Program-made: the position numbers and the translations under genes
Shown: in pieces, positions 1,940 through 62,435 of the stretch
How the letters are laid out: each line of letters begins with the position of its first letter
Position numbering within the stretch: the first letter of the stretch is position 1
Origin: a virus
Virus record (IMG/VR): IMGVR_UViG_3300009774_000008
Coordinates: 1-64,000 of that record
DNA length: 64,000 bases
Strand: one strand, 5' to 3'
The notes under the pieces: model-generated
Told to the model about the DNA's origin: nothing
Database searches by the model: none
What the model saw: only the letters and a program-made list of their open reading frames with translations

Positions 1940-2258
1940 TTTTCTCTATCCCCTCCCAAGTTAACATTCCTTTACGAGCTAACTGAGCAACTTGTATTAA
2001 TTCACAAGCACCCAATATAGCTCTTCTCTGAATTGTCTCTAAATTAGTATGGCCGTAACCCGTATCTCGAGAAATGTGATTCCAAAATTCATTTAGTTCT
2101 TTTTGTACCCCGTCCATTTCTATAGCTGACTCTTGTACTTCTTCTAGAATGTAAGCAAATGTTTCGTGGTTACTATTCATAGTATAACCCGATACAATGT
2201 CACATCTCCTAGTTTCATCTTCTATCAACTTCTTAACGCTTTCAATTAACTCTTTCAT
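1911..2258 (-). CDS. MazG-like / dNTP pyrophosphohydrolase-like protein
   Basis: 115 aa from the ATG at 2258. The upstream TTG at 2276 lacks a spaced RBS, whereas AGGAAAG sits about 10 nt before this ATG. The all-helical pattern ILEEVQES...ELNEFW...ACELIQVAQLARKG resembles phage MazG-like proteins, where paired Glu in an EExxE helix bind Mg and the enzyme hydrolyses nucleoside triphosphates. In a phage that may alter its deoxynucleotides, pool cleansing would fit. Assignment rests on pattern only. Confidence 0.6.
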   Translation of the reverse strand: MKELIESVKKLIEDETRRCDIVSGYTMNSNHETFAYILEEVQESAIEMDGVQKELNEFWNHISRDTGYGHTNLETIQRRAILGACELIQVAQLARKGMLTWEGIEKNANKQQTEG

Positions 2259-4161: not shown

Positions 4162-4737
4162 CTATTTAATTAGACTATAGAATTCTTGGCGTAATGCAAC
4201 ATCAGTAGCAAACACACCCCTCAAAGCACTTGTTCTAGTTGATACACCTTGCTTTTTAATTCCTCTTGCGGTCATACAAGAATGCTCACCCTCTATTACT
4301 ACAATTACATTTTCCGTGTCAACTACTTTGCACATTATTTCTGCTATATCAGTGCCTATTCTTTCTTGCAGTTGAAGCCTTTTACCCACCATGTCAGCTA
4401 TTCTGGCTACTTTACTGAGGCCAATAACTTTATTCTTGGGTATGTAGCCCACAGATACCTTCATGTTGTACATTAGAGCCAAGTGGTGTTCGCAGTAACT
4501 AAATATTGGAATATCTTTCACGACGACCAAATCACCTGTTTCTACATCGCCAAAACATTTACTGAACATATGAGCAATCTCATCATTGGTGTACAACATA
4601 CCCTCAAATACTTCGGCATACATTTTAGCTACTCTTCTAGGGGTATCTCGTAAACCCTCTCGGGTAACATCATCACCTAATGCAGCAATGATGTCTTTTA
4701 TAGCATTTTCAATCTTTTCTGTGTTTATATATTTCAT
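4162..4737 (-). CDS. folE: GTP cyclohydrolase I
   Basis: 191 aa. It converts GTP to dihydroneopterin triphosphate, the first step to 7-deazaguanines. The zinc site is visible as YCEHH (C82, H85) and EHSCMTARG (C154), with the family motif GLSKVARI between them. The ATG at 4737 is chosen over one at 4767 because AGAGGTG lies 7-8 nt before it and the longer form would run into queE. It follows queE in one minus-strand operon with queD, queC and queF. Confidence 0.95.
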
Positions 4738-4739
4738 AA

Positions 4740-5393
4740 TTATACACCTCTTTTGTCTACAGGCCATATAATTTTATGAAGTTGAACTTGAATCTTACAT
4801 TCAGTTAATTTGTTTACTTTCATAAACTCTACAATTTCAACCATTGTTATTTTTCCCCATACAGGACTGAAATAAATCTGTGCTTTTGGTTTGAGGCTTG
4901 TAATTACACCATAAGCCGCCATCAAATCCTCTCTACTACCAACTACAAATTTTAACACATCTTTTTCAGTAAAATGGCAGAAGTTTATTAGTAGCATTGA
5001 ACTTCCCATCCCACTTGATGGACACTTATAATCAACAGTGAAAAAAGAATTGGGATATTCAAATCGTTCAATCATGTTATTAATATTAACTGAACCATTA
5101 GTCTCTATATTAACTTCAAATCCAGCTCTATTCAATTCATGAATCAATCTCTCAACATCGTCGTGAATAAGTGGCTCACCTCCAGTTAAAGTGATAGCTT
5201 TGACTCCAAACTCCGTACAAGCCTTCACTACTTCGGATACAGTCATTGTCACACCATCGGAATAGTGCTGACTATATACAGTATCACAATAAGAACATCT
5301 TAAATTACAACCAGCTAATCTAACAAATGTGCATAAAATTCCAGCTCTCTTACCTTCTCCTTCAATACTTGAAAATATCTCAACTACTTGCAT
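4740..5393 (-). CDS. queE: 7-carboxy-7-deazaguanine synthase (radical SAM)
   Basis: 217 aa. It converts 6-carboxytetrahydropterin to 7-carboxy-7-deazaguanine using SAM and a 4Fe-4S cluster. The cluster motif C29-x3-C33-x2-C36 is intact, and IFSSIEGEG and LTGGEPL are QueE signatures. The ATG at 5393 follows AGGAGG; longer in-frame starts lack an RBS and would overlap queD. It lies between queD and folE in the pathway operon. Confidence 0.95.
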
Positions 5394-5395
5394 AA

Positions 5396-5728
5396 TTAGT
5401 CCTCCTCGTATACTGCTATATTTCCTTCGCTTTCTTGTACCTCTACCTTGTAGCAATGCGGAACATTATCGCAAATCCACTTAGCTATATTCTCAGCTGT
5501 TGGATTGAAGTCCACAACATCATTGAGAAAAGCATGGTCCAACTTCTCGGAAACCGCATTCTTAATGTGTTTAAAATCCACTACCATTCCGTTCTTGTCA
5601 AGAATTTCGGACTTGCAGTGAACGGTGATTATCCAGTTATGACCGTGAATATTCTCACATTTACTAGCGTAATCCAAAGTTAGTTTGTGAGCTCCGGCTA
5701 TTTCCATTCTTTTAGATATTCTATACAT
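5396..5728 (-). CDS. queD: 6-carboxytetrahydropterin synthase
   Basis: 110 aa, compact for the family. It converts dihydroneopterin triphosphate to 6-carboxytetrahydropterin. Zinc ligands H14, H28 and H30 (CENIHGHNW), catalytic C24, the LDHAFLND block (D64, H65) and PTAEN with a C-terminal VQESEG are all present. The ATG overlaps the end of queC by 8 nt (ATGTATAG), so translation is coupled. Confidence 0.95.
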   Translation of the reverse strand: MYRISKRMEIAGAHKLTLDYASKCENIHGHNWIITVHCKSEILDKNGMVVDFKHIKNAVSEKLDHAFLNDVVDFNPTAENIAKWICDNVPHCYKVEVQESEGNIAVYEED

Positions 5729-6428
5729 TAGTTTTTACCTCGTACCCAACAGGGTCTTTCATACCATTGGCTGCAAAAGCTGCATTTCTATCAATGCAAG
5801 TTCCGCAAGTTCCGCATTGCTTTTCTTTCCCCTCATAACAGCTCCAAGTAAGATGGTAAGGTGCACCGAGTGTTAATCCTGTCTTAACGACAGATGCTTT
5901 ATTCATGCTAATTAGAGGAGCTACCATTGAGAGAACTCTTCCTGAACCCTCATATATTGCATCATTCATTGCCTTTTGGAACTCAGGTGTGCAGTCCGGA
6001 TAGGCTCTTCCTGCGGCGTCGTCGGCGTGTGCACCGTAGTATACTGCACTAGCACCAAAACTAATTGCTACTGCCGTTGCGTACGATAACATTAAACCAT
6101 TTCTAAATGGAACATAAGTAGCAACCGTACCCTCTCCTCCTATATCATTTAACTGATTAGCATAACTCTTATGCTCTATATCATCTCTTCCTATAAGAAG
6201 TGTACAATCACTAAATTTAAACACTTCAGCCAAACTCTCACTTATGTGCATAACCCCATAATACCTAGCCACATTGGACGCACTTGTAAGCTCTTTTGTG
6301 TGCTTCTGGCCATATGATACTGATAGTGCGAGAACATTGTCACTACCATATTTCTCAATTGCTAAGGCCAGACAAGTTGTGCTGTCTATACCCCCACTCA
6401 ATAAAACAACTGCCTTATAATTTTTCAT
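5721..6428 (-). CDS. queC: 7-cyano-7-deazaguanine (preQ0) synthase
   Basis: 235 aa. An ATP-dependent enzyme that turns 7-carboxy-7-deazaguanine into preQ0 using ammonia. It has the PP-loop SGGIDS (11-16), [16 protein letters not shown], and the zinc site C197, C205, C208, C211. It has no fused amidotransferase domain, so it is ordinary QueC and not the GAT-QueC of phages that make dG+. The start overlaps the queF stop by 4 nt. Confidence 0.95.
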
Positions 6429-6925
6429 ATTCTTACTCTCCTTGTAGGCCCATCAGCCGCAAATTTGAACATTCTTTCTGTAGCATAATAACTATAGCTA
6501 GACCCAGGCTTAGAATAATTAGTGAACGGATATATAGATATTCCGCCCCTAGGAGTAAATATTCCAAATACCTCTATATACTCCGGATTCATAAGCTTAA
6601 TGAGGTCCTTTTTTATGATATTCATACAATCTTCATGAAAGTCTCCATGATTCCTAAAACTAAATAAATACAATTTCAATGACTTACTCTCAACCATCTT
6701 CTCGCTTGGTATGTAGTTAATAAACACATTAGCGAAATCGGGTTGGCCTGTTTTAGGGCATAGACTGGTAAACTCGTAACAATCGAAAGATACCATATAG
6801 TCGTTGTCCAAATGCTTGTTAGCAAATGTCTCCAATACTTCTGGAGTGTAATCGTATTGATATTTTGTGTTCTGGTTACCCAACAGACTTACTCCGTCGA
6901 GTTCTTTCTCATTTCTACCTGGCAT
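6425..6925 (-). CDS. queF: NADPH-dependent preQ0 reductase
   Basis: 166 aa, the short unimodular type. It reduces the nitrile of preQ0 to the aminomethyl of preQ1. The catalytic Cys is C56 ([12 protein letters not shown]) with D63, followed by the QueF NADPH motif E79-SKSLKLY and H97-E98. Intact catalytic residues argue for preQ1 as end product. It could alternatively be a QueF-like enzyme with another nucleophile substrate. A structured leader lies upstream (6935-6989). Confidence 0.92.
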
Positions 6926-7248: not shown

Positions 7249-7419
7249 TTACTTCTTTTTTGGTAGTCCCAGAGCTAACAATTTGGCTTTATCTCGTTTA
7301 TTTAATTTATTGAAATTTGCTTGTGTTATTACTACATAACCCGTGTCATACTGAAATGCTAAATAGGGTTGGTCTAATCTTGTGATTACTTCGGCCATTT
7401 CTTTGTCAAATTTACCCAT
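7249..7419 (-). CDS. Hypothetical protein, 56 aa
   Basis: The ORF starts MGKFDKEMAEVITR and ends in a basic tail (LGLPKKK). It begins at ATG after AAGGAGAGAGT and lies 9 nt downstream of the dpdA-like gene in the same operon. A helical N-terminus, a short beta segment (YDTGYVVIT) and a basic C-terminus are visible. It may be an accessory of the DNA-modification genes by position only. Confidence 0.6.
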   Translation of the reverse strand: MGKFDKEMAEVITRLDQPYLAFQYDTGYVVITQANFNKLNKRDKAKLLALGLPKKK

Positions 7420-7428
7420 ACTCTCTCC

Positions 7429-8424
7429 TTAAAACAATGGTTTTCTTACAACTGATGATGGAGTATACTTGTAATCACGAGCCCAATTTTGCAAGAACTG
7501 AACATTGAAAATAACTCTCTGCTTGTAATCGTCAGCTAACCTTTCCATCGAGTACCCGTGACTTTCAACATACTTTTGAATTTCCTGCTGTGCATCTTTT
7601 GGCATTTTCCTAATATGGTCCGGTGCATGTAACCTACTTGAGCTAACTGTAACCGACCCGTACTTTGTCATTATGCTACCATTAGCACCGTTCATAATCC
7701 AGCTCGTTGAATCCGCACTTGTAAATGGATATCTCTCTAATATATGCAAAGAGGTCATTCCAAAAGCATGCGTTTGAACATTTGGGTTTGAACTCTTTTT
7801 GATAATTTTAAAGCACTTGTCAATGAACTTTTCCTTTTCTTTAACTACTTGGTCATTGGCAGGAGATATTCCAATATAAGGTATATGCTTACCATCAAAT
7901 TTAGTTTCTAAAATATTAATGAGCCATTTATAGTCCTCACCTTGATGGAATATTGGTAATAACTTATCTGGACTTGTTAATCTTTCTCTCATATACAAGT
8001 AGTTGTCCCAACTTAGTTCTGGCGCCTCATTAAGTTGTTGCGGTGTTTTAGGTTCACGGAACACACCAGGAATCTTATCTACTTGAGCACATATATGAAT
8101 CTGAGAATCAATTAAATTTAAAAACTCTATATATGCATCTACGTCTACTTCGGCTCCTCTAGTATGAGCTGAGAAAGCTCCAGAGTCAATAAATAAGTTA
8201 CCCTTACAGTATCCTTCATCTCTTCCCGCTATCCAACCCCTTATAACTATTTTATCGAGTAGCTGACTAGCGAGTCTGTTAGCACCACGAGTCCTTAAGA
8301 ATTCTTCAGCTAACTTGTTCTGGCTTCCTGCAAAGTATAGCTGAAAACCTCCAGCAGACTTTACTTCCTCGAGAGGAGCGGAATTAACTACTTTCTCTAT
8401 GTGCAATAAACTCATTCTTGACAT
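7429..8424 (-). CDS. dpdA: DpdA-type DNA 7-deazaguanine transglycosylase (TGT paralogue)
   Basis: 331 aa. Members of this TGT-related family exchange guanine in DNA for a 7-deazaguanine base. The TIM-barrel motif FIDSGAFSAHTRG places D80 at the position of the TGT DSGGFQ aspartate, and SADSTSW near D240 supplies the second acidic site seen in phage DpdA proteins. The tRNA TGT zinc motif CxCxxC is absent. It sits immediately upstream of a complete preQ1 pathway, so the likely modification is preQ1 in DNA. A queuine tRNA-ribosyltransferase role is less likely. Confidence 0.85.
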   Translation of the reverse strand: MSRMSLLHIEKVVNSAPLEEVKSAGGFQLYFAGSQNKLAEEFLRTRGANRLASQLLDKIVIRGWIAGRDEGYCKGNLFIDSGAFSAHTRGAEVDVDAYIEFLNLIDSQIHICAQVDKIPGVFREPKTPQQLNEAPELSWDNYLYMRERLTSPDKLLPIFHQGEDYKWLINILETKFDGKHIPYIGISPANDQVVKEKEKFIDKCFKIIKKSSNPNVQTHAFGMTSLHILERYPFTSADSTSWIMNGANGSIMTKYGSVTVSSSRLHAPDHIRKMPKDAQQEIQKYVESHGYSMERLADDYKQRVIFNVQFLQNWARDYKYTPSSVVRKPLF

Positions 8425-43817: not shown

Positions 43818-43874
43818 ACTCTCTCACCCCTCTCGTCCTTACCCCTAAATATACAATAAGTAACCGCAATTTTT

Positions 43875-43904
43875 TTGTACTCTTGTTGTACTCTTGTTGT
43901 ACTC
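43875..43904. repeat. TTGTACTCTTG direct repeats
   Basis: Two full 11-nt copies (43875-43885, 43886-43896) and a partial third (43897-43904). Lies upstream of the terL promoter on the minus strand sense side, in the leader of the small Cys gene. Confidence 0.8.
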
Positions 43905-43925
43905 ATAATCTTTTATTTCTCGGGG

Positions 43926-43940
43926 ATAGGCGACGCCTAT
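43926..43940. promoter_or_regulatory. Operator-like palindrome at the terL promoter start
   Basis: ATAGGCG-A-CGCCTAT is a perfect 7-bp inverted repeat around a single base. It lies 6-20 nt downstream of the -10 element, where transcription would start, the usual place for a repressor dimer. Confidence 0.6.
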
Positions 43941-43946
43941 AGTTAT

Positions 43947-43975
43947 ATATTATATTGAAACGATTACTTTGTAAA
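43947..43975 (-). promoter_or_regulatory. Promoter TTTACA-17-TAATAT for packaging genes
   Basis: On the minus strand TTTACA (43975-43970), 17 nt, TAATAT (43952-43947); a TATAAT is also present 2 nt earlier with a 15-nt spacer. It faces the terL transcript. Confidence 0.6.
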
Positions 43976-44404
43976 GACAACTTCGAGCATAGTCGTATAA
44001 TTCTTTACTATTTTGTATATACTAATATAGTAATAACACACTATCGAGTCGATTGCTTTTGTGAGGCCTAGTGTGGTTTTGAACCCGGTTTCCTTCAACT
44101 ATTATAAATAACTCTCTACTCTCGGTATTAGTAATTATGAATAATTTCTCTAATAATATACTTTCACTTTATCTTGTAATTCCCGTATAGCCATGGTCTT
44201 TAGGTCTTTTCCTCTCAGTTTACTATCAAATAACCGAGACCATCTTTATATTATGATAAAAAAATAATGACTCGGCCTTTATGGTACAGAATTCGTAATA
44301 AACGGTCATCGACAAGTACACCATCGAGTATGGGGACCACCCCCGGGGTACGAGATCTAGTGGTACTTCGGACACACCATGTAGTGGTGGGTTGAGAGCA
44401 AGGA

Positions 44405-45188
44405 TACTATATATAGTACCGAGTAATAACTATACTATATACAGTATATCCAGCTGTGACACACCACTATATATAGTATATAATAGAGGTACTTCGTATC
44501 TGCTACATACGTTTCCCCTATATTTAGTGTTTTTGAAGCTGTTTCTGGTACTGCTACTCACATCAGTTACCCTTTCTCGCCCGCACAACGGTGAATCACG
44601 TATTTATACCCCTTAGCGTGGTTAGTATTGGTTTTCTACTATAAAAATAAGTAAACGTAGGTATACAGGTGTACAATAGTATAGTAATAGAGACATACAA
44701 CATATAGTGCTCTACTATGCTGTATCTACTACATCTCGTATAGTAGAGTCGTATATGCCACACAGGTACTATATACAGTATGTTTATAGTTTATTCTAGT
44801 ACTATATATAGTATATATTTATATCTGCTCTTCTGCTCCCCGATTTCTTTGATTTCCGGTATTTTATTGTACTGTTTTGGCAGTACTGTAAATCTGTTAT
44901 TAACAGGGTAGTAACGTACACTGCGCTCCTGCCGTGTTTTGTGTGTAGTTTGTACTGTATTAGTAGTTATTTCCTTATTACGCCTTTTTGCGGGTAGTTT
45001 AGTGTATTGTAGTTATTTAATGTTTTTTTTACTATGTAGTAGTAGTTATACAGTACACTTTCTCGCCCGCAAAATGGTTTCTGCGCACTTTTCGCGCCTA
45101 ATCAATATAAACATACCGGGGTAGTAATATAAATTGCTTTTACAACATCTCGTACCTGAGGTGTCAACAATACCACTATATATAGTGG
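44405..45188. repeat. Family of ACTATATATAGT palindromes
   Basis: Exact ACTATATATAGT at 44406-44417, 44466-44477, 44801-44812 and 45175-45186 (the last extended to CCACTATATATAGTGG, 45173-45188). Variants ACTATATACAGT at 44434-44445 and 44768-44779. They occur as a dense cluster only in this non-coding region. Confidence 0.85.
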
Positions 45189-45224
45189 ATGTAAAAATAC
45201 TTTGTAATTCTCGGATTATTTTAA

Positions 45225-45254
45225 GAGATATGGCGAGATATGGCGAGATATGGC
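45225..45254. repeat. Three tandem copies of GAGATATGGC
   Basis: Three exact head-to-tail 10-bp units, one helical turn each, at 45225-45234, 45235-45244 and 45245-45254. Could be a protein-binding array. Confidence 0.85.
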
Positions 45255-45906
45255 GTAAAATTTAGTTGATAAGTAGGTAGTTTATTGTAAACGTGTTATT
45301 TAGTGTTATTTGCATAAATTCTCGGTTATTTGTGGTTGTATTGTAGTACATATTAGTCTATCATTAGTAGTGTACTAAGTAGTTAATTAGTACACAGTAA
45401 TGCTTAGTTAGTACCATCCCTTGTACATTGTCAATTTCATAGTTCGTCCTTATGCTCCGTTTATAGTGTGCTTTTCGTAAATACTATAAATCTTGTAAAC
45501 TAACTTACCAGTTAGTAGGAATTGGGCGGATTATGGTATACTGTGTACTCGTAGTTAGTTGCCCCTTGTTAGTTGCTGAAGTATTTTTTCAGTACAACAA
45601 CTCGGAAGCATTGTACATTGAAAACTTAATATTGTAGTCGCCGTTATATAAGGTGTCATTTTCGCCTGTATAAACTGCCGTTTGTGAAGTTTTTGCTCGT
45701 ACTACCTCAGATTTTTTCTCGTCCTTCCTTTAGTTGCCGAAGTTTGGCACAACATTGGAAGTATTTGTTAAAATACCCGGTAGCAGGGGGCAATTACTAC
45801 TATCCCAGGCCTATACAGTAGAGATTGGCAAATATGTGTAAAACACAACCTTAATACCTCAGAAAAACTGAGAGGAAATGGGCGAAGTGGTGTTAGTAAC
45901 CACTAT

Positions 45907-46573
45907 GAAGTTTTAGGCGTAGCTGAATGTCCATAATTCTTTTCCGAAGCATTTTATCAAAATAAAAATTAAAATTTAAAAGGAGACCGATTATTATGAC
46001 AAACTCAACTATGAACCTTAAGGACATTATTGCAAAGCAGGTAATTACAAGCAGGACTGGAAGTTTTATAGAATATAACAGTAAGAAGAAATTATCCGCT
46101 TCCGGCGTGCTCACCAAAGAACAAGAAGAAGTAATTGCACAGCTTAAAGGTACGTTTACTTTCAATATGCATTCTGAAAATCGTTATTTAATTGTAACCA
46201 TGTACTATAGTGCTACGAAGACTTACGGATTTTTAGTAATAGATTTGACTACTTTGGCAGTAGCTGAATCCGAAAGTATAAAAATTGCCAAGAAATTTGT
46301 ACTAGACCAGATAGAAGAAGACAAAAAAGTAGTTGTACCAGTTATAGAGCAAGCACTTGAAGAAATTGTAGCAGAAATAAATGCTCAAATTGAAGCAGAA
46401 CATAATTCCGAAGTACATGAGCAAGAAATAGTAGAAGAAAAGATTGAAGAAAAAGTAGAAGATGTAGTTGTTGAAAATGTAGTAGCAGAAGTAGTTGTTG
46501 AAACAAAGAAAGACAAGAAATCAAAAAAGTAAGACCTTAAGGATTATGGACAATCACATACGCCTAAAACTTC
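45907..46573 (+). repeat. Cassette inverted repeat 1
   Basis: Left arm 45907-45941, right arm 46539-46573, 35 bp. 31 Watson-Crick pairs, one U-G, a two-base central mismatch at pair 16-17 and one further mismatch. It encloses the gene 45996-46532; the right arm begins 6 nt after its stop. Confidence 0.9.
45996..46532 (+). CDS. Early hypothetical protein with acidic helical tail, 178 aa
   Basis: An N-terminal alpha/beta domain (about 1-95; YLIVTMYYSATKTYGFLVID) is followed by a Glu/Val-rich tail with repeated VEEK/VVEN units and a final Lys cluster. The low-complexity tail suggests an elongated, charged interaction segment. AAAAGGAGACC precedes the ATG. First gene of the plus-strand early cluster and of the inverted-repeat cassettes. 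Function unknown. Confidence 0.8.
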   Translation: MTNSTMNLKDIIAKQVITSRTGSFIEYNSKKKLSASGVLTKEQEEVIAQLKGTFTFNMHSENRYLIVTMYYSATKTYGFLVIDLTTLAVAESESIKIAKKFVLDQIEEDKKVVVPVIEQALEEIVAEINAQIEAEHNSEVHEQEIVEEKIEEKVEDVVVENVVAEVVVETKKDKKSKK

Positions 46574-46574
46574 A

Positions 46575-46920
46575 AATCTGTCGTCAGTTGTAAACACGCA
46601 ATCTCCTAATAAGAGAGAGGGCGTGCTTAATAATGAGAGAAGAAACTAATAAGATGACTATATTACTTGCCGACGAATACATTGATGTGAACGACGTTCA
46701 GCATTTGCTGACTGTATTTTCGGGGAATGACCTGAAGAAGTTGAAGTATGGAATAACCTTTGAAGTTGACGGAGAACCTAAAGAATGTATAGCCTTGGAT
46801 AATGGTACTTTTGTATATCAATCCGAAGGTGATAATGTTCGTACGAAGAATTTTGTAGAAGTATTGAATTATTTATTGTAAGAAGAAGAAGAATTGCGTG
46901 TTTACACATGACGACAGATT
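46575..46920 (+). repeat. Cassette inverted repeat 2
   Basis: Left arm 46575-46602, right arm 46893-46920, 28 bp with 26 pairs and a 2x2 central mismatch at pairs 13-14. The left arm starts 1 nt after the right arm of repeat 1. It encloses 46633-46881. Confidence 0.92.
46633..46881 (+). CDS. Early hypothetical protein, 82 aa
   Basis: A small acidic protein (DEYIDVNDVQHLLTVFSGND, GITFEVDGEPKECIALDNGT). It resembles no family I know. The ATG follows AGAGAGGG with a long spacer; an internal ATG eight codons in is an alternative start. Sits alone in cassette 2. Confidence 0.7.
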   Translation: MREETNKMTILLADEYIDVNDVQHLLTVFSGNDLKKLKYGITFEVDGEPKECIALDNGTFVYQSEGDNVRTKNFVEVLNYLL

Positions 46921-47371
46921 ATTATGCGCAATTGTAATGCTCTCGCTAAAAAGGAGAAAGAAACTTATGAAATTATTTAAAGTTGAAATTGCCATTTTAG
47001 CCCCAGCACAGGACGCCGAAGGGGCCAAAAACCGGTTCATAGACCAATATGATTCAACAGAATCCATTGTAGAATCCCTAACTGTACACGAAATTGTACC
47101 ACATGAGGATTTCATTAAGCTCTTCAGGTTGGGAAGAATTTTAGATAAAATTGACCAGTTCAGTACTTTTGAGACAATTTCATTGGTAACTGAATATGCT
47201 AAATTGTTGGGATATATATTAACGGTGGATGAAGTGTCAGAAGGTATTATAGCTTGGTGTGAAAGATTAGAGGATATTCCGGACGAAGAATTGGAAGACT
47301 GGTTGAATTAGTACAGAAGACAAAACATAGTCAAAATATACATGAGCGAGGGCATTACACATGCGCATAAT
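46921..47371 (+). repeat. Cassette inverted repeat 3
   Basis: Left arm 46921-46947, right arm 47345-47371, 27 bp: 24 Watson-Crick pairs, one U-G, a two-base mismatch at pairs 11-12. The left arm directly abuts the right arm of repeat 2. It encloses 46967-47311. Confidence 0.9.
46967..47311 (+). CDS. Early hypothetical protein, 114 aa
   Basis: MKLFKVEIAILAPAQDAEGA start with an alpha/beta look, then helical, ending in an acidic IPDEELEDWLN. The ATG at 46967 follows AAGGAG; an in-frame ATG at 46898 would place repeat arms inside the gene and lacks an RBS. No family recognised. Confidence 0.75.
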   Translation: MKLFKVEIAILAPAQDAEGAKNRFIDQYDSTESIVESLTVHEIVPHEDFIKLFRLGRILDKIDQFSTFETISLVTEYAKLLGYILTVDEVSEGIIAWCERLEDIPDEELEDWLN

Positions 47372-47527
47372 ACGAAGAAGTGAAGATTCTATGTATAGCA
47401 ATGTACCGAGAAGAATTACCTCTTTTAGTGGCGAAAACATTTCTATCTTTGGTGGGTCATATAAGGGTGAATTGTCTTAAGGAAAAATGCTCTCGGAATG
47501 TACGAGAATTAATTAGGAGGATTCACC

Positions 47528-48241
47528 ATGGAATCGAAAAAATACATTGTAAGAGGCACGTTGAAGGGCCACAAATGGGTAGATAGTGAAACAGAATACA
47601 TGAATTCCGCAGAATTAGTGGATGATGTAGATGAGATAAAAGAACTGTTTACCCAAGACTCGGACGATGAATTGGCACAATATATAGGTGAAAGAGAAAC
47701 CATTTATGGTTTATTCGACTCTATATATGTAAATGTTGAAATTATCGGCGGTAAGTTGTATAGCAGAACAGAAATTCTATCCAAGAGAGAATTAACCGAA
47801 GAAGACAAAGTTTCTCTATTGTCTTACTTAACTGGTCAGTTTTCAGATGGATACGGCGAAGGATTGGAACAGCATGCTTACAGTAAATTCCGAGAAACAA
47901 TAGAGTCAGAAGAATGGGACGAAGAAGAACAGGAGTCCTTTACAGAGGAGAATGAGATAGATGTTGAATCTTTCCTGCACTTATGGCAACGAGGTGATGA
48001 ATTTAAGTTGGAATTTATTTCTCCGGAATTAGAAGGAGTAACACCAACTGAAGTTACTAAACCTAGATGCAAGTTAATTGGTGAGGATGGAAACATATTT
48101 AATCTAATTAGTATTGCTAGACGTAAATTAGTGAAAGCAGGTCAGGCAGATATAGCAAAAGAGATGGAAGCGAAAGTAAAAAGTAGCAAAAGCTATTCAG
48201 AAGCTCTTGGCATTATTTGCGATTATGTAGAAGTATACTAG
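47528..48241 (+). CDS. Early acidic hypothetical protein, 237 aa
   Basis: An N-terminal beta segment, the block SLLSYLTGQFSDGYGEGLEQ, an acidic stretch (ESEEWDEEEQESFTEENEID), and a C-terminal domain PRCKLIGEDGNIFNLISIAR (then RKLVKAGQ) that I recall as a repeated theme in phage and plasmid proteins of Bacillota. Strong negative charge suggests DNA mimicry or host-protein binding, but this is guesswork. AGGAGG precedes the ATG. Confidence 0.75.
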   Translation: MESKKYIVRGTLKGHKWVDSETEYMNSAELVDDVDEIKELFTQDSDDELAQYIGERETIYGLFDSIYVNVEIIGGKLYSRTEILSKRELTEEDKVSLLSYLTGQFSDGYGEGLEQHAYSKFRETIESEEWDEEEQESFTEENEIDVESFLHLWQRGDEFKLEFISPELEGVTPTEVTKPRCKLIGEDGNIFNLISIARRKLVKAGQADIAKEMEAKVKSSKSYSEALGIICDYVEVY

Positions 48242-48254
48242 AGAGGAGAATAAT

Positions 48255-48440
48255 ATGAAGAAACTAACTGGAAAGCAAAAAGAAATATTACTTAGTTTCG
48301 TAATAGAAAAATTAGTGGATGAATTAAATGCTCAAATGGGTGAAACTAATGGACCATTGGTTTTGTACGATTCAGAAGTAGAAGAGATTAATGATGCTAT
48401 AAAACAACTCGGCATCAATACTAAGTTGGAAATAATCTAA
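48255..48440 (+). CDS. Early hypothetical protein, 61 aa
   Basis: Helical (GKQKEILLSFVIEKLVDELN) with ETNGPLVLYDSEVEEINDAI following. RBS AGAGGAGAAT. Shares cassette 4 with the preceding gene, from which it is 13 nt away. No function recognised. Confidence 0.7.
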   Translation: MKKLTGKQKEILLSFVIEKLVDELNAQMGETNGPLVLYDSEVEEINDAIKQLGINTKLEII

Positions 48441-48528
48441 AGTACATGATACAGACAATTCACCTTTATACGACCCACCAAGGATGTTCGACCGCAGACT
48501 ACAGCACAACCAGAATGAGAGGTTACTT

Positions 48529-48855
48529 ATGAAAAATAAAGATGAAAGACAAATCACTCTTGGGGACTGCAGAGACGACATTTTATATGAACTGGGTTAT
48601 GCTCAATACTTGGAAGAGTCTTTTCCAGATAGCCCTGATACGAAACTAAATCTATGGCAAAGATTACTAAATAGACATAAGTTTTGCGTATTTGTAAATG
48701 CCTGTTATGATTTAATTAGGTGGAAGTTCAACCATCTAATATGTAAGGTTTTTGGACATAAATGGATAGATGAAAGTTATGGCGGCCCTGAAGGTGGAGG
48801 AGAGTTTTTCTGCTGTGATAGATGTGGAAAATCTTTTGGAAACACGCTTTATTAA
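48529..48855 (+). CDS. Early zinc-ribbon protein, 108 aa
   Basis: The C-terminus GHKWIDESYGGPEGGGEFFC followed by CDRCGKSF is a zinc-ribbon of a type seen in many phage proteins. The N-terminal 65 residues are helical (CRDDILYELGYAQYLEESFP). The start at 48529 follows GAGAGG; a longer in-frame ATG (48484) overlaps the repeat arm. Confidence 0.72.
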   Translation: MKNKDERQITLGDCRDDILYELGYAQYLEESFPDSPDTKLNLWQRLLNRHKFCVFVNACYDLIRWKFNHLICKVFGHKWIDESYGGPEGGGEFFCCDRCGKSFGNTLY

Positions 48856-48878
48856 ATAATAGGTGGGGGGTCACTATA

Positions 48879-49034
48879 ATGCGTAAACTATTAAAAGGAA
48901 TTGAGCTTATTTGGATAGTCATTTCAATCTTAATTCTATCTTGGTTCTTTGTTTCTTGGATTGGTGTTATCAGTTCTAATACAGTTCCTGGTAATTCTAT
49001 TCCGGCATGGAATGCTTTTAACATATTCCAATAA
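48879..49034 (+). CDS. Early small membrane protein, 51 aa
   Basis: One hydrophobic helix (IELIWIVISILILSWFFVSW) after MRKLLKG, then a short polar end. RBS GGTGGGGGG. A single-span membrane peptide that could act on the host envelope, e.g. superinfection exclusion; unproven. Confidence 0.65.
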   Translation: MRKLLKGIELIWIVISILILSWFFVSWIGVISSNTVPGNSIPAWNAFNIFQ

Positions 49035-49120
49035 ATTTAGATTGGTTGTGCTGTAGTATGCGGTCGAACTTGTTCTGATATAATGACACGACAACATAAG
49101 ATGAAAGGTTGGGTCATTAC

Positions 49121-49369
49121 ATGAAAAAATTAACAAAAGAGAGTTATGAAAAATTCCTTGAGGGCTATGGTAGCGACATTAATTCCGAAGGCTATGAAGG
49201 CGAGCAGATATACGATTTAGCTCGTTGTGTTATAGACGCAAGAGATTCTGAGACAAAAGCTGTCACACAATACCTAAATAGTATTGGAGTTTCAGATGTT
49301 CTTGGGAGACTTGCAGATGATATGTCATGTGCTGCTAATAAGTCAAGGAGGAATAAAAATGGAAGATAA
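49121..49369 (+). CDS. Early hypothetical protein, 82 aa
   Basis: MKKLTKESYEKFLEGYGSDI start, acidic and helical. The ATG at 49121 is chosen over an in-frame TTG at 49109. Overlaps the next gene by 11 nt, so translation is coupled. Function unknown. Confidence 0.7.
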   Translation: MKKLTKESYEKFLEGYGSDINSEGYEGEQIYDLARCVIDARDSETKAVTQYLNSIGVSDVLGRLADDMSCAANKSRRNKNGR

Positions 49370-49997
49370 CAGAATGATGGATAAAATTAGAAAGTTGCTT
49401 AAACTTTCTGAGAATAATGAAAATGAATCCGAAGCATCTTCTGCTTTGCTTAAAGCACAGAAGTTGATGTCTGAAAATAATATTTCAATGGATATGTCTA
49501 ATCCTGAAAAGATTGAGTATGCTTCTCTAGTATGTGAGCATAAATGGGATATGGGTTTTAGAAAGCCTTTAGGTACTGTGATTGCGAGGAATTTCCGTTG
49601 CAAGATGTATTTGCAATCAAATTCAGTTGTATTTATGGGCCATGCTTTTGATGCTCAAGTAGCAAAAGAAGCTTTCGAGTATGCTTATGAGTTTGCATTA
49701 AAAGAAGGAAACAAGCATTATAATAAAGCATATTCAATGGGAATTGAAACTAGGGGTGTATTTAACTCTTATGTACTAGGCTTTATTAAAGGAATAGACC
49801 ATAAGTTCTCAGAACAGTCAGTAGCTTTAATGATTATTATCCCTCCCGATGTAGAATCAACATTTACAACGATGACGGAAAAATGGAAAACGTCAAAGGG
49901 TGGGATGCGACAAGGAAATTTTAATATCAATGCTTATACAGAAGGAATGCAAGACGGCAAGACCATAATGAACGGAAGAAGAATAGCTAGCAAATAA
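49359..49997 (+). CDS. DUF2786-like protein, 212 aa
   Basis: The N-terminal helix pair MMDKIRKLLKLSENNENESE then SALLKAQKLMSENNI is DUF2786. The rest (GTVIARNFRCKMYLQ, FEYAYEFALKEGNKHYNKAY, SYVLGFIKGID) matches the usual C-terminal extension of these phage proteins. AAGGAGG precedes the ATG. The biochemical role of the family is not known to me. Confidence 0.85.
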   Translation: MEDNRMMDKIRKLLKLSENNENESEASSALLKAQKLMSENNISMDMSNPEKIEYASLVCEHKWDMGFRKPLGTVIARNFRCKMYLQSNSVVFMGHAFDAQVAKEAFEYAYEFALKEGNKHYNKAYSMGIETRGVFNSYVLGFIKGIDHKFSEQSVALMIIIPPDVESTFTTMTEKWKTSKGGMRQGNFNINAYTEGMQDGKTIMNGRRIASK

Positions 49998-50109
49998 TAA
50001 AAATAGGTCGTGTCATTATATCAGAACAAGATAAGAGATGAAACTAACACCACTAATTATCTAGGTGCTTATTAGAACATGGTGTGCCTTACATTAGGAG
50101 GAAATTAGT

Positions 50110-50316
50110 ATGGAAAAACAATTTAATCTGACCGATTTCTATAACACATATGCCCAAAGATGGGACTATATATGGGATAATGTAGAATTGGGTTTATGCT
50201 ACTATGCCGATGACAAGATGTTTTATGTTTTCGACAAAACAAAAGATGATAACATATGTGAAACCAATGATTTCAACCACGCAATTAAAATATTAAATGG
50301 AGGATTAACACTATGA
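50110..50316 (+). CDS. Early hypothetical protein, 68 aa
   Basis: Aromatic-rich small protein (FYNTYAQRWDYIWDNVELGL, CYYADDKMFYVFDKTKDD). RBS TAGGAGGAAAT. First of three coupled genes in cassette 7. No family recognised. Confidence 0.72.
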   Translation: MEKQFNLTDFYNTYAQRWDYIWDNVELGLCYYADDKMFYVFDKTKDDNICETNDFNHAIKILNGGLTL

Positions 50317-50579
50317 GCGAAAAGTACACTGAAACAGAGAGAGAACTAATAATGCTAATATTAGATGCATCCGAGAATTGCAGTCCTACGAAACTAAGTA
50401 TTAACCATACCACAGAAACCGGTCAAGTTAGAAAAGGTATTGTTATTACTGAAGCCTGTGGTGCAATTATCGATAAGATAGTAAAAAGTCCTTTGGTTAT
50501 GACTACTTATCTAACTCCTAAGGGGCTTCACGTAACTTGCCACCAGAAAGGTGAAAGAAAGTCTGTGGGTTGCATATGA
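50313..50579 (+). CDS. Early hypothetical protein, 88 aa
   Basis: Starts MSEKYTETERELIMLILDAS and overlaps its neighbours by 4 nt (ATGA). Mixed alpha/beta with a C-terminal GLHVTCHQKGERKSVGCI. Function unknown. Confidence 0.7.
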   Translation: MSEKYTETERELIMLILDASENCSPTKLSINHTTETGQVRKGIVITEACGAIIDKIVKSPLVMTTYLTPKGLHVTCHQKGERKSVGCI

Positions 50580-50797
50580 TTAAGAGTGTGTTTAGTATGA
50601 ATGCAAATGAGTGCTTTGCTATAATGGCAATACAAGAAGCGATGGGAACAGTTCCTACCCAAGTAAATGGGTTAGACATGCTCACACCAGAAGAAATTAA
50701 AGAGATTAAAGAAATAGCTTATAAATTCTGTGTAAAGATGATGAATGAATCATTTAGAGTACAAGAGTCAGCCATTAGTCAGTTCTGGGGAATATAA
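50576..50797 (+). CDS. Early hypothetical protein, 73 aa
   Basis: Starts at the ATGA overlap with the upstream stop (MIKSVFSMNANECFAIMAIQ); helical, with TPEEIKEIKEIAYKFCVKMM in the second half. Last gene of cassette 7. Function unknown. Confidence 0.68.
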   Translation: MIKSVFSMNANECFAIMAIQEAMGTVPTQVNGLDMLTPEEIKEIKEIAYKFCVKMMNESFRVQESAISQFWGI

Positions 50798-50838
50798 CAT
50801 AATCAGCACACCATGTTGCAATAAGCATCTAGATAATA

Positions 50839-51126
50839 TATCACAGGTCCTAATATAGGTGCTTCATTGAGAGGAGTACATTATGAAAAGGTATAAAGAT
50901 AAAGAGATTGTAACTTGTCATGTTTGTAATGGTACTGGATTTGTACCAGAAGACTATGAAGGTGATTTATTCTTAGCTGAATGTCCTGTTTGTGAAGGAG
51001 ATTGTATTATAGAAATTGAGCATATTCAATATCAAGGAGAGAATTTAAGAGTACTGAGAGATTCATATCGAGTAAAATAATAAACATAAGAAATGGTATG
51101 AAGCATCTATATTAGGGCCTGTGATA
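50839..51126 (+). repeat. Cassette inverted repeat 8
   Basis: Left arm 50839-50867, right arm 51098-51126, 29 bp: 27 Watson-Crick plus two wobble pairs, so fully paired as RNA. It starts 1 nt after the right arm of repeat 7. Encloses 50883-51080. Confidence 0.93.
50883..51080 (+). CDS. Early DnaJ-like zinc protein, 65 aa
   Basis: VTCHVCNGTGF and AECPVCEGDC are two CxxCxG-type knuckles like the DnaJ zinc centre, followed by a short beta segment. RBS GAGAGGAG. Alone in cassette 8. Unknown function. Confidence 0.75.
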   Translation: MKRYKDKEIVTCHVCNGTGFVPEDYEGDLFLAECPVCEGDCIIEIEHIQYQGENLRVLRDSYRVK

Positions 51127-51184
51127 CAATCATATGCTCAGTTATATGGTGCTCCTCCTAATACATTTTATCTAAGAAGAAACA

Positions 51185-51213
51185 TTTACATTTTCCTTAG
51201 TATGTAGTACAAT
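51185..51213 (+). promoter_or_regulatory. Promoter TTTACA-17-TACAAT
   Basis: TTTACA (51185-51190), 17 nt ending in TATGTAG, TACAAT (51208-51213). Same sequence block as the minus-strand promoters at 12990, 21061 and 62781. It drives the DUF932 gene and genes downstream. Confidence 0.8.
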
Positions 51214-51257
51214 AGTAATTACCGCAAGACAAAATAAAATTTAGGAGGACACACACG

Positions 51258-52190
51258 ATGGCAGCAAATGTAGAAAATATGTTTTCAGTAAGAGAAACAC
51301 CTTGGCACGGATTAGGTACAGTTATTCAAGAGGCCCTAACAAGTAAAGAGGCAATTGGTATAGCGGGTTTGGATTGGACAGTAGAGCAAATTCCACTAAT
51401 TCACAAAGAGCAAGATTCGGGATACTTTATGAATGTTAGAAGTTCAGATGAAAAGGTTCTTGGTGTAGTTGGTGGCAGGTACAAACCCGTACAGAATGTT
51501 GAAGCATTTGATTTCACAGATGATTTAATAGGACAGGGTGTAAAGTATGAAACTGCTGGAAGTCTAAGCAATGGTAAGAGAATATGGATGCTAGCTAAAA
51601 TGCCTGAAACAGATATATTAGGCGATAAAGTAGAGCCGTTCATGTGCTTAACCAATTGTCATGATGGATTTGGTAGTTTGAAAGTGTGCATGACACCGGT
51701 AAGAGTTGTTTGTCAGAACACTTTAAATCTCGCTCTTGATTCAGCTAAAAGAATGTGGTCAGTTAGACACACTGGAAGTATTGGTGCTAAATTAAGTGAA
51801 GCTCGTAGAACCTTTGATCTTGCTGGAACTTATGTAGACTCATTGAAAGAACAAGCAGAGAAATTGGCCGCAATAAAAGTAGCTCCAAAAGACTTTGATA
51901 TGTTAGCAGAAACTATGTTTCCAGTAACAGGCGAGATGACATCAAGAAAAGAAGACTCACAGCTCTTGTTGCAAGAACAACTTCGTCAGGCTTGGAACAT
52001 GGATGATTTGGGTAACATAAAAGGAACTGCTTGGGGATTTATCAACGCTGTTTCGGATATGGCAACTCATAAGAAACCAGGAAGAAAGACAGACAATTCA
52101 CAGGAGAATTCATTTATGTATACCATAGATGCTCCCGTAATATTAGATGCGGCGTTGAAATTAATACTTCAATCAAGAATGTCAGTATAA
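51258..52190 (+). CDS. DUF932 / phage-plasmid-like protein, 310 aa
   Basis: MFSVRETPWHGLGTVI, GVVGGRYKPVQNVEAF and RVVCQNTLNLALDSAK are the DUF932 (phage/plasmid-like TIGR03299) signature blocks. These proteins occur widely on phages and plasmids; their function is not established. It has its own promoter and strong RBS (AGGAGG), so it is probably abundant. Confidence 0.9.
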   Translation: MAANVENMFSVRETPWHGLGTVIQEALTSKEAIGIAGLDWTVEQIPLIHKEQDSGYFMNVRSSDEKVLGVVGGRYKPVQNVEAFDFTDDLIGQGVKYETAGSLSNGKRIWMLAKMPETDILGDKVEPFMCLTNCHDGFGSLKVCMTPVRVVCQNTLNLALDSAKRMWSVRHTGSIGAKLSEARRTFDLAGTYVDSLKEQAEKLAAIKVAPKDFDMLAETMFPVTGEMTSRKEDSQLLLQEQLRQAWNMDDLGNIKGTAWGFINAVSDMATHKKPGRKTDNSQENSFMYTIDAPVILDAALKLILQSRMSV

Positions 52191-52268
52191 CATACAAAAG
52201 AGGAGCATCATATAAATGAGCATATGAGTAAGTACATCACTTCATTATAAACTAAGGAGGCCACTATA

Positions 52269-52559
52269 ATGGCTAAAAGATTACAGAAAATAGAGATTTC
52301 AGTATTAGTAGCGAGAGCAAATAATACGTTAGCTAATCCTAAGATAAGTCAAGGTGAGAAAAAAGGTGTATGTTGTTTGCTAGAAGAAGTGCTGATGGCT
52401 ACTAAAACATACCGAGGTTTCAATTATGTTCACTGGTTAGCTGGGGGTTGTAAAGAATGGTTAGCGTGTGTGGAGTTAGGGACTGTTAAAGAAGATGATT
52501 TTAACACAAAACAGAAGTATTTAGGCGAAGAATATTCAAGGATGTACTACAGTAGGTAA
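52269..52559 (+). CDS. Hypothetical protein, 96 aa
   Basis: Helical, with CCLLEEVLMATKTYRGFNYV then HWLAGGCKEW. RBS AAGGAGG. First gene beyond the inverted-repeat cassettes; I found no repeat pair around it. No family recognised. Confidence 0.72.
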   Translation: MAKRLQKIEISVLVARANNTLANPKISQGEKKGVCCLLEEVLMATKTYRGFNYVHWLAGGCKEWLACVELGTVKEDDFNTKQKYLGEEYSRMYYSR

Positions 52560-52595
52560 CACAAATAGAGAGGAGTTAAAAGAGGTGACCCGAAA

Positions 52596-53015
52596 ATGAG
52601 AGTCCTTAAGGTAGCAACTGCGAGCAAAGCTTGCATTGTGCCCCTAAAGATAATATTTATATTGCCGCTCAAATTAATTCTTTGGGTGTTGGGGTTAATT
52701 TTATATCCCTTCACCCGAAAGCACAAAAAACAAGAACGGATTGAAATTGTAGAGGAAGATGAACCAATACCACAAATACAAGAAATTCCGGAGTTTCAAG
52801 AAATATTCAATGTTACCAGAGACACTATAATTGGAATAGAATATATCGAAAGAATTCCGGATGAGACTGCATTTATTAGAGTAATTGGAGAGTTCGGTTT
52901 CACTAAGCAATTCAAGAAGAAAGTTTGCAAGGATGCAGGTTACAATGGAAATAGATACATCAAGGTAGACAATATTAAGTACTACCTAGAAAAATCAACA
53001 GCTAGAAATTTATAA
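52596..53015 (+). CDS. Membrane-anchored hypothetical protein, 139 aa
   Basis: A hydrophobic hairpin-like N-terminal region (about 13-37, IVPLKIIFILPLKLILWVLG) leads through a basic Arg/Lys stretch to a soluble C-terminal domain with ETAFIRVIGEFGFTKQFKKK. Could localise to the inner membrane. RBS AGAGGTGACC. Function unknown. Confidence 0.65.
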   Translation: MRVLKVATASKACIVPLKIIFILPLKLILWVLGLILYPFTRKHKKQERIEIVEEDEPIPQIQEIPEFQEIFNVTRDTIIGIEYIERIPDETAFIRVIGEFGFTKQFKKKVCKDAGYNGNRYIKVDNIKYYLEKSTARNL

Positions 53016-53031
53016 CTCGGAGGAAAATTAT

Positions 53032-53310
53032 ATGAAATGTACAGGAATAGTTAGAAGAATAGACGATTTAGGAAGAGTTGTAATACCAAAAGAAATAAGA
53101 AGAACTTTCAACATCTGTGAAGGTGACCCGCTTGAAGTGTATACTTCGGCGGAGGGTATCACGTTTAAAAAGTATGTGTTTGAAAATCAATGTATCATGT
53201 GCGGTGAGGCTACTGATGATTTAGTAGGTGAAAAGCATCTCTGTAATGGTTGTCAATCTAAAATTGTAAGGAACTTCGATTCTAAAAAATTTAGCAATAG
53301 AGAGGAGTAA
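53032..53310 (+). CDS. AbrB/SpoVT-type transcription regulator with zinc ribbon
   Basis: 92 aa. GIVRRIDDLGRVVIPKEIRR is the AbrB/MraZ swapped-hairpin DNA-binding domain; a C-terminal CIMCGEATDD...CNGCQSKI supplies a zinc ribbon, as in AbrB-like proteins of Bacillota phages. It probably controls transcription, perhaps at the palindromes in 44.4-45.2 kb (inference). RBS CGGAGGAAA. Confidence 0.9.
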   Translation: MKCTGIVRRIDDLGRVVIPKEIRRTFNICEGDPLEVYTSAEGITFKKYVFENQCIMCGEATDDLVGEKHLCNGCQSKIVRNFDSKKFSNREE

Positions 53311-53311
53311 A

Positions 53312-53560
53312 ATGCGTGAATTTCAATTCAGGTGTGCCAAATGTGATGCTGTTTGGTACGCCACCAAAAAGGATTTAAAAGAGAGTCGTAAGAACAGAAA
53401 AAATATTCTAATCACTAAATTAGGTTTGTTCGGACTTCATACTAATAAGACATATCGTAGACTTAATGAGCAAGTTGCTCAAATGCAAGTAGCTTCCAAA
53501 GACTACGAGAGATGCTCTGCTTGCGGCTCTCGTGATGTATCTAAAAATGTTAATAATTAA
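53312..53560 (+). CDS. Zinc-ribbon protein, 82 aa
   Basis: REFQFRCAKCDAVWYATKKD and YERCSACGSRDVSKN give one complete C2-C2 ribbon split by a helical insert. Its ATG lies right after the AbrB stop. It is the last gene of the plus-strand cluster. Confidence 0.78.
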   Translation: MREFQFRCAKCDAVWYATKKDLKESRKNRKNILITKLGLFGLHTNKTYRRLNEQVAQMQVASKDYERCSACGSRDVSKNVNN

Positions 53561-53562
53561 AT

Positions 53563-53593
53563 AAAAAAGGAGCCCGTTATGGGTTCCTTTTTT
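53563..53593. terminator. Bidirectional terminator
   Basis: AAAAAAGGA-G-CCC (53563-53575) and GGG-T-TCCTTTTTT (53581-53593) form a 13-bp stem with a GTTAT loop and U-tracts on both strands. It separates the plus-strand early cluster from the converging small-terminase gene. Confidence 0.92.
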
Positions 53594-60584: not shown

Positions 60585-60921
60585 TTTTAATATCCCCCAT
60601 CTTGTGGTTGAGCCATAATAGCCTTTGAGCCCGCCTAACTGTATCTTCGTCCAAATAAGGTAAATCGAATCCAGTTGCTCCATTGAATCCTTTAAACGCA
60701 TCTGCATATAATACAGTGCTAGCTATTTCTGGATATTTGTTTTGCAGGTCTGCTAGTTCATTTGCCCACTCTTGCCACTTCATATCCGATACTATATTAG
60801 TATCCATTGCGTAGTATATACAAGAGTGAACCAGAATTTGAAGCCTTCGTTGCTGTATCTTTTCAAATATCAGAAGATTATCATCCTCCTTTAATTTAGT
60901 CCTAGCCTTGACTAACGCCAT
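60517..60921 (-). CDS. DNA ligase LigA-related protein
   Basis: 134 aa. SCIYYAMDTNIVSDMKWQEW followed by ANELADLQNKYPEI resembles domain Ia of NAD-dependent ligases (YYxxDxPxxSDxExDxLxxEL), which binds NMN, but the adenylation domain is missing. It cannot seal nicks alone; a role in NAD use or a decoy of the host ligase is speculative. ATG at 60921 follows GGAGG. Confidence 0.7.
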   Translation of the reverse strand: MALVKARTKLKEDDNLLIFEKIQQRRLQILVHSCIYYAMDTNIVSDMKWQEWANELADLQNKYPEIASTVLYADAFKGFNGATGFDLPYLDEDTVRRAQRLLWLNHKMGDIKSDKQPENKKHKGLFKTSRRTNS

Positions 60922-61321
60922 GAACCTTAGCCTCCTGTATTGGGGTAACATTATTTTGATACCATTGTCTAGACGGTGTGGGCTTTAAACCAAAGGATAC
61001 CTTAAGTGCCTCATCAACCTGTTCCATTATGTAAGGCTCTAAAAAGTAGATGCAATTTTCAAGCTCTCCTACGGAAACAGGACCAGCTTGTTCCGTCATC
61101 GCAGTATTGATTTCTCCATTTAGAGTAAACAGAACGTGAGTAGGCATATTTCTCTTGACGGCTGTGGTACAGGGTACTACAAGCAAAACAGATGAAGTAT
61201 CGTTGCATACATTATTGCTGACGATAACTACTGGTCTAGAACCCGCCTGAATGTGACCAGCTGCACGTGTTTTAGGATTACGATACCAAATTTGACCTCT
61301 TTTAAATTCAACTCCACTCAT
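60902..61321 (-). CDS. PemK/MazF-family protein
   Basis: 139 aa. FKRGQIWYRNPKTRAAGHIQ, SRPVVIVSN and VVPCTTAVKRNMPTHVLF with TEQAGPVSVGEL are MazF/PemK features (mRNA interferase fold). No antitoxin gene lies next to it. As part of a phage operon it might cut host mRNA or be inactive. ATG at 61321 after GGGGG. Confidence 0.88.
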   Translation of the reverse strand: MSGVEFKRGQIWYRNPKTRAAGHIQAGSRPVVIVSNNVCNDTSSVLLVVPCTTAVKRNMPTHVLFTLNGEINTAMTEQAGPVSVGELENCIYFLEPYIMEQVDEALKVSFGLKPTPSRQWYQNNVTPIQEAKVHGVSQG

Positions 61322-61939: not shown

Positions 61940-62095
61940 TTATTTAGCGTAATCGCTGCAAAAACTATTTTCTTTTCTGAATATGCAAGTTCTATGCTTG
62001 CACGTAGCACAGGACTTTGCTGCTACTACTTCAAATTTCCTTCTTTGAAGTTCCTCCAAAAGCTGTGTTACTGTATATTGTTTTAAACTATCCAC
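61940..62095 (-). CDS. Small Cys-rich protein, 51 aa
   Basis: GTG-start ORF: MDSLKQYTVTQLLEELQRRK then SCATCKHRTCIF with a late Cys (FCSDY), so one zinc site. GGAGGGGAG precedes the start; it overlaps the upstream gene's end. Its stop region provides AGAGGAGGG for the next gene. Confidence 0.7.
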   Translation of the reverse strand: MDSLKQYTVTQLLEELQRRKFEVVAAKSCATCKHRTCIFRKENSFCSDYAK

Positions 62096-62435
62096 AATGT
62101 ATCTCCCCTCCTATAACGGATTTAATTTTTCTTAACTGGTCTAAGGACAAGTTTATTTTACCGTACTCTCGGATTATCTTTCTTATGTCATTAGATAATA
62201 TATCATGTTCTTGTTTATCTTCGATTTCTTGTCGGCTAAAATATAAATAATAATCAGCTGCGTAATCTGTTATTTGGTCAAAATCCACTTTATTAAATTT
62301 ATAAGTTAGGCTACCGTCCAATGTTACTGTTATACATTTTGAGCCTAATGATGTTATTACACCTTCTCTAATTTCTGTATTGTATCTCGAGGTATTAACC
62401 CCAGGAGATAAATATACTGTTTGGCCTTTATTCAT
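62088..62435 (-). CDS. Hypothetical protein with KOW-like barrel, 115 aa
   Basis: MNKGQTVYLSPGVNTSRYNT, then GVITSLGSKCITVTL: a small beta-barrel as in many phage hypothetical proteins, followed by a helical half (DIRKIIREYGKINLSLDQLR). ATG at 62435 follows AGAGGGG. Function unknown. Confidence 0.7.
   Translation of the reverse strand: MNKGQTVYLSPGVNTSRYNTEIREGVITSLGSKCITVTLDGSLTYKFNKVDFDQITDYAADYYLYFSRQEIEDKQEHDILSNDIRKIIREYGKINLSLDQLRKIKSVIGGEIHCG

Follow-up and report, generated by a model that had tools for sequence, protein, structure and literature searches.

Layout of the nine-cassette block

The 64,000-nucleotide (nt) stretch of DNA analysed here (the window) is nearly the whole of the virus record IMGVR_UViG_3300009774_000008, which totals 64,552 bases, and belongs to a tailed phage that carries terminase, tail, DNA polymerase and queuosine-type genes. 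Almost all genes of the window run leftward, the sole rightward block lying at ~45.9-53.6 kilobases (kb). Within this block, from 45906 to 52227, nine inverted-repeat pairs with arms of 24-36 nt that are 89-100% complementary enclose nine consecutive translation units, each pair bracketing one to three genes in a loop of 230-1042 nt. An earlier sequence-only reading of this DNA had described nine cassettes, each bracketed by its own inverted repeat; all nine pairs were recovered, with the bracketing as described and the arms slightly longer than the 23-35 base pairs (bp) given there. The cassettes are listed below (ORF, open reading frame; aa, amino acids; G001 to G003, related phage contigs introduced in the next section).

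45906-46574, plus strand: cassette 1 (A), 36-nt arms at 45906-45941 and 46539-46574; ORF 45996-46532 (178 aa, Lys-rich tail); orthologous cassettes in G001 and G002
46575-46920, plus strand: cassette 2 (B), 28-nt arms at 46575-46602 and 46893-46920; ORF 46633-46881 (82 aa); orthologue seen in none of the relatives
46920-47372, plus strand: cassette 3 (C), 28-nt arms at 46920-46947 and 47345-47372; ORF 46967-47311 (114 aa); orthologues in G001 and G002
47445-48485, plus strand: cassette 4 (D), 33-nt arms at 47445-47477 and 48453-48485; ORFs 47528-48241 (237 aa, phrog_1933) and 48255-48440; orthologues in G001, G002 and G003
48486-49069, plus strand: cassette 5 (E), 27-nt arms at 48486-48512 and 49043-49069; ORFs 48529-48855 and 48879-49034 (short, hydrophobic); orthologues in G001 and G002
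49069-50030, plus strand: cassette 6 (F), 24-nt arms at 49069-49092 and 50007-50030, perfectly complementary; ORFs 49121-49369 and 49359-49997 (DUF2786 and DUF7168); orthologues in G001, G002 and G003
50056-50837, plus strand: cassette 7 (G), 32-nt arms at 50056-50087 and 50806-50837; ORFs 50110-50316, 50313-50579 and 50579-50797
50839-51126, plus strand: cassette 8 (H), 29-nt arms at 50839-50867 and 51098-51126; ORF 50883-51080 (65 aa, CxxC zinc-finger-like)
51130-52227, plus strand: cassette 9 (I), 28-nt arms at 51130-51157 and 52200-52227; ORF 51258-52190 (310 aa, DUF932); orthologues in G001, G002 and G003

A spacing of 15-100 nt separates the left arm from the first start codon, the Shine-Dalgarno sequence being clear of the arm, and the right arm follows the last stop codon by 6-33 nt; the earlier reading had given these distances correctly. 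No arm in the window cuts an ORF or covers a Shine-Dalgarno sequence. Successive cassettes are tightly packed, the gaps from each right arm to the following left arm being 0, -1, 72, 0, -1, 25, 1 and 3 nt; arms abut at six of the eight junctions, and at two junctions one base is common to both arms.

It is scarcely credible that this pattern stems from chance, terminator hairpins or an assembly artefact. The 64-kb window has no further pair of comparable strength within 3 kb. Over 200 simulated sequences of preserved composition, pairs scoring at least 18 arose 0.04 times per 64 kb and none reached 20.5, the weakest score among the observed nine. In a comparison set of unrelated loci from viruses and bacteria (273 loci, 4.27 Mb), there were 25 strong pairs in total and no two that abutted. 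Chance is ruled out by the simulations together with the layout repeated in three relatives. Paired terminators can give inverted repeats, as in the early region of phage SPO1, where no array was found and the one bracket-like pair around genes is a pair of terminators, but the arms considered here barely fold on themselves (0 to -8.6 kcal/mol) and no intrinsic-terminator-like site was found between the cassettes on the plus strand; intrinsic terminators were rejected as the identity of the arms on both grounds. Ends of transposons or integron cassettes were rejected on the lack of a common end sequence among the cassettes. As the sequence-only reading had held with regard to transposons, arm sequence differs from cassette to cassette, and pairing with wrong partners is far weaker than with cognate ones. 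Any sequence motif shared over all stems is only weak (information 14.8 vs 11.1-12.7 in shuffles, the orthologues among the stems not being independent).

Pairing of the arms in related phages

Three contigs that carry arrays of the same layout, with stems around orthologous genes in the same order as in the window, came from searches in which the terminase, polymerase, DUF932, DUF2786 and first-cassette proteins were the queries.

G001, IMGVR_UViG_3300018494_000138: 7 stems
G002, 3300014039_000038: 6 stems
G003, 3300025888_000020: 4 stems and one weaker pair without a clear gene inside

A further contig, 3300024269_000774, matches G001 with full identity over the common stretch. The kept order comprises the Lys-tailed, ~115-aa, phrog_1933, hydrophobic, DUF2786 and DUF932 proteins, some of which are missing from G003, and the DUF932 protein is the last bracketed unit across the array phages. 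Cassette proteins of the relatives are 27% to 73% identical to those of the window. The weaker pair of G003 (21 nt, local positions 7335-7692 of locus L184) directly precedes the first strong cassette and holds ~320 nt without a clear ORF. No array was seen in more distant phages (terminase identity ~56-61%, some contigs partial), and the array therefore seems, from the sequences compared, to be the mark of one clade.

The letters of orthologous arms differ between phages and their complementarity within each phage is kept. Cognate arm duplexes have a mean energy of -45.9 kcal/mol (range -32 to -55), as against a mean of -17.0 kcal/mol for orthologue-swapped arms and -25.8 kcal/mol for the best wrong partner inside one genome; in the window alone, the best wrong-partner pairing reaches -19.3 kcal/mol vs -38 to -51 for partners. 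Among 160 aligned pair columns of G001 and G002, the two closest relatives, 119 are unchanged, 26 have changed on both sides and still pair, 8 have changed on one side and still pair, 3 are broken in one genome and 4 are mismatched in both. Retention of the genes with loss of arm complementarity had been named in advance as evidence against the cassettes; the cassette orthologues of the three relatives gave the opposite outcome, with one small gene, which lies inside a stem in G001, standing outside any stem in G003.

Non-canonical oppositions show a strand preference. On the coding strand, G.U oppositions outnumber A.C by 32 to 8 over 26 stems (p = 0.0002, with related stems not fully independent), and the direction is equal in all four genomes (8:2, 8:1, 9:2 and 7:3). 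As a DNA-level repeat predicts equal numbers unless mutation is strongly strand-biased, the excess of G.U argues for selection on the sense RNA. Folding of the plus-strand RNA, suggested as a check in the earlier reading, gave a predicted minimum-energy structure of the full 6.4-kb RNA that contains all nine stems, and the stems of G001 and G002 were likewise recovered. Taken together, the covariation in three relatives, the G.U excess, the start codons and Shine-Dalgarno sequences left free of the stems and the predicted fold strongly support the proposal, already made from the window's sequence, that the arms work at the RNA level, on the coding strand, each pair closing a loop around a whole translation unit. 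We regard this conserved and unusually regular RNA architecture as real, and a mechanism for it as plausible.

A role at the DNA level, with the repeats serving as recombination or exchange sites for the gain, loss and swapping of cassettes between phages, is disfavoured and appears very improbable. Cassette content does vary among the relatives (9, 7, 6 and 4 stems), and the small gene unbracketed in G003 would fit such exchange, but each pair has a private sequence, the arms of orthologous cassettes are not the same from phage to phage, and the G.U bias depends on the strand. Nor would a DNA function require the arms of the window to spare ORFs and Shine-Dalgarno sequences.

The stems are not wholly regular. 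A tandem mismatch lies ~12-18 bp from the stem base in cassettes 1-3 of the window and in the first two cassettes of both G001 and G002; at this position the right strand reads 5'-CACAU in six of the seven stems and ACAU in all seven, and the mismatched left bases are variable. The mismatch could steer single-strand cutting or bind a protein. A ProQ C-terminal-like domain protein, a possible RNA binder, is encoded at 62088-62435 on the minus strand; as a conserved stem binder it was rejected, since searches of the three relatives gave no such protein. Every phage with both cassettes C and D, three in all, has a gap at their junction (72, 17 and 18 nt).

Proposed fate of the block transcript

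The rightward block is flanked, and its bracketed part followed, by the features below.

43820-45905, plus strand: gene-poor stretch of ~2 kb, with no convincing gene, that separates the first arm from the leftward gene for the terminase large subunit
52269-53560, plus strand: four unbracketed genes, the final genes of the same rightward block, without stems
53563-53593, plus strand: intrinsic-terminator-like hairpin of 14 pairs, preceded by an A run and followed by a T run, ending the rightward block

Since terminator-like sites are missing between the cassettes and one follows the last rightward gene, the block is likely a single transcript. A separate promoter for each cassette was rejected, promoter-like matches being no commoner than in shuffles. 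By its position, the gene-poor stretch is presumably the promoter and leader region of the block; short AT repeats are abundant in it, and a comparable gap is present in G003. The gene layout would suit early expression of the block.

On balance, we favour a model in which this single transcript folds into loops of one translation unit each and is cut by host RNase III to messenger RNAs (mRNAs) with paired ends. One RNA would be made from the rightward block, and nine private long-range stems would fold it, without mispairing, into nine base-to-base loops with almost no single-stranded linker, each carrying one to three genes with free ribosome-binding sites. Cutting of the 24-36 bp stems by host RNase III would then yield separate mRNAs whose 5' and 3' ends are mutually paired, which may shield them from 5' and 3' exonucleases and uncouple the fates of adjacent genes. 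The working mode would be that of the 16S and 23S stalks of precursor ribosomal RNA (pre-rRNA), applied gene by gene to messenger RNA. As a search of the four phages for genes of the RNase III family found none, while its control gave matches in known bacteria, the host enzyme is the natural candidate. Stem length lies inside the range reported for Bacillus subtilis, where RNase III cuts long-range intramolecular duplexes of 10-36 bp with at most 505 nt between sites (PMC11780869). Several points weigh against this model. Some loops (up to 1185 nt) exceed the B. subtilis maximum; stems are missing from the block's last four genes and so are dispensable for expression as such; part of the excess of G.U over A.C could come from strand-biased C-to-T mutation; weak protein relatives only suggest Clostridia as hosts; and cutting, end protection and timing are proposals made from sequence. 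A more tentative extension, which we would put somewhat below even chances, sees an inherited operon architecture with an orthogonal double-stranded RNA clamp for each translation unit, the loops being matured to end-sealed or even circular mRNAs.

The stems might instead form in RNA as insulating domains that block exonucleases, ribosome read-through and mispairing of neighbours, with RNase III cutting incidental or resisted, a reading that we consider rather unlikely. All of the structural and comparative evidence is equally compatible with it, as is the failure to find a phage RNase III in the four genomes. The tandem mismatch that three phages retain in their first two or three cassettes, where the right strand is almost invariant (ACACAU), could serve as a site for a protein or restrict cutting. 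Near-perfect duplexes of more than ~22 bp are, however, typical substrates of RNase III, an enzyme nearly universal in bacteria, and the phage would have to stop it from acting on its stems.

Improbable, in our estimation, is a function of the pairing as a guard against single-strand-specific RNA cutting, whether by a phage MazF/PemK-like interferase or by a host defence nuclease, in which cut loops would be held together with their ends sealed. All four array phages carry a PemK/MazF-like mRNA interferase gene (60902-61321, minus strand, in the window), which a search of two related arrayless phages did not find. Among 885 five-letter words, UACAU, the motif typical of Firmicute MazF enzymes, ranks third by avoidance in the leftward coding sequences (47 seen vs 68 expected). 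UACAU sites nevertheless occur within the open loops, the block shows weak avoidance of them (5 seen against 8.6 expected) and the co-occurrence is based on four related genomes. GATC-containing words are also strongly avoided in leftward coding sequences, and a MazE/AbrB-like gene lies at 53032-53310, inside the rightward block.

Among known systems, the pre-rRNA stalks cut by RNase III or Mini-III are similar in that a long-range stem closes a loop with a functional RNA inside a polycistronic precursor, and the array shares with them flanking complementary arms (here in the predicted fold), compensatory changes and a duplex length in the RNase III range. It differs in that its loops are protein-coding, nine different stems stand in a row, neighbouring arms abut and cutting is proposed from the structure. 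In phage T7, RNase III divides the early transcript at local intergenic hairpins; the splitting of one early phage transcript into separate mRNAs between genes is proposed likewise for the array, whose pairing partners, unlike those hairpins, are 230-1042 nt apart across genes, and no long-range bracketing pair was found in the T7 early region. The icaR mRNA of Staphylococcus aureus is a single case of a duplex between 5' and 3' untranslated regions cut by RNase III, in which a short motif pairs with the Shine-Dalgarno region and blocks translation (PMC3868564). Both ends of one message pair there as well, but icaR is a single gene with its ribosome-binding site blocked, whereas the array leaves these sites free and its layout recurs along an operon. 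The long-range RNase III targets of B. subtilis (PMC11780869) are also intramolecular duplexes of 10-36 bp across hundreds of nucleotides; they are scattered single sites, whereas the array stems systematically bracket each unit. On the tests made, the array belongs neither with the pre-rRNA stalks nor with icaR-type duplexes, and may resemble both in its working.

An array of stems placed gene by gene along a phage mRNA is apparently undescribed. The sequence-only reading knew of no account of such an array for protein-coding genes, and our literature search, with open-access articles as its main scope and subscription journals and preprints mostly outside it, likewise found none. If the model of folding and cutting is true, long-range RNA pairing can serve gene by gene as a systematic mRNA device, beyond ribosomal RNA and isolated mRNAs, and the clamp-per-unit architecture would be a new type of mRNA organisation in bacteria and phages. 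For Gram-positive hosts, the array offers a natural test of how mRNA lifetime, translation and defence respond to paired ends, and its layout is a natural design for stable, insulated multi-gene transcripts.

Additional loci and neighbouring genes

A looser search also returned, at 903-1954 of locus L223 on the 155-kb phage contig IMGVR_UViG_3300031760_000006, two bracketed ORFs that abut, one stem being 25 bp and the other 14 bp long. This two-cassette locus is a possible independent case, with mismatches that are A.C and not G.U. Next to it, at 1960-3400, a stretch of ~1.4 kb contains repeated segments such as ggcaccaagtgagtgattctggttacgac and shows no evident gene, transfer RNA or Rfam match. 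In the 64-kb window, no Rfam family matched above the gathering score and no transfer RNA was found. Elsewhere in the window, a queuosine-pathway gene cluster occupies 4162-6925 on the minus strand, with a QueF match at 6425-6925 and neighbours that are of the folE, queE, queD and queC types by reading only; by its gene content, the cluster suggests a deazaguanine modification of the phage DNA.

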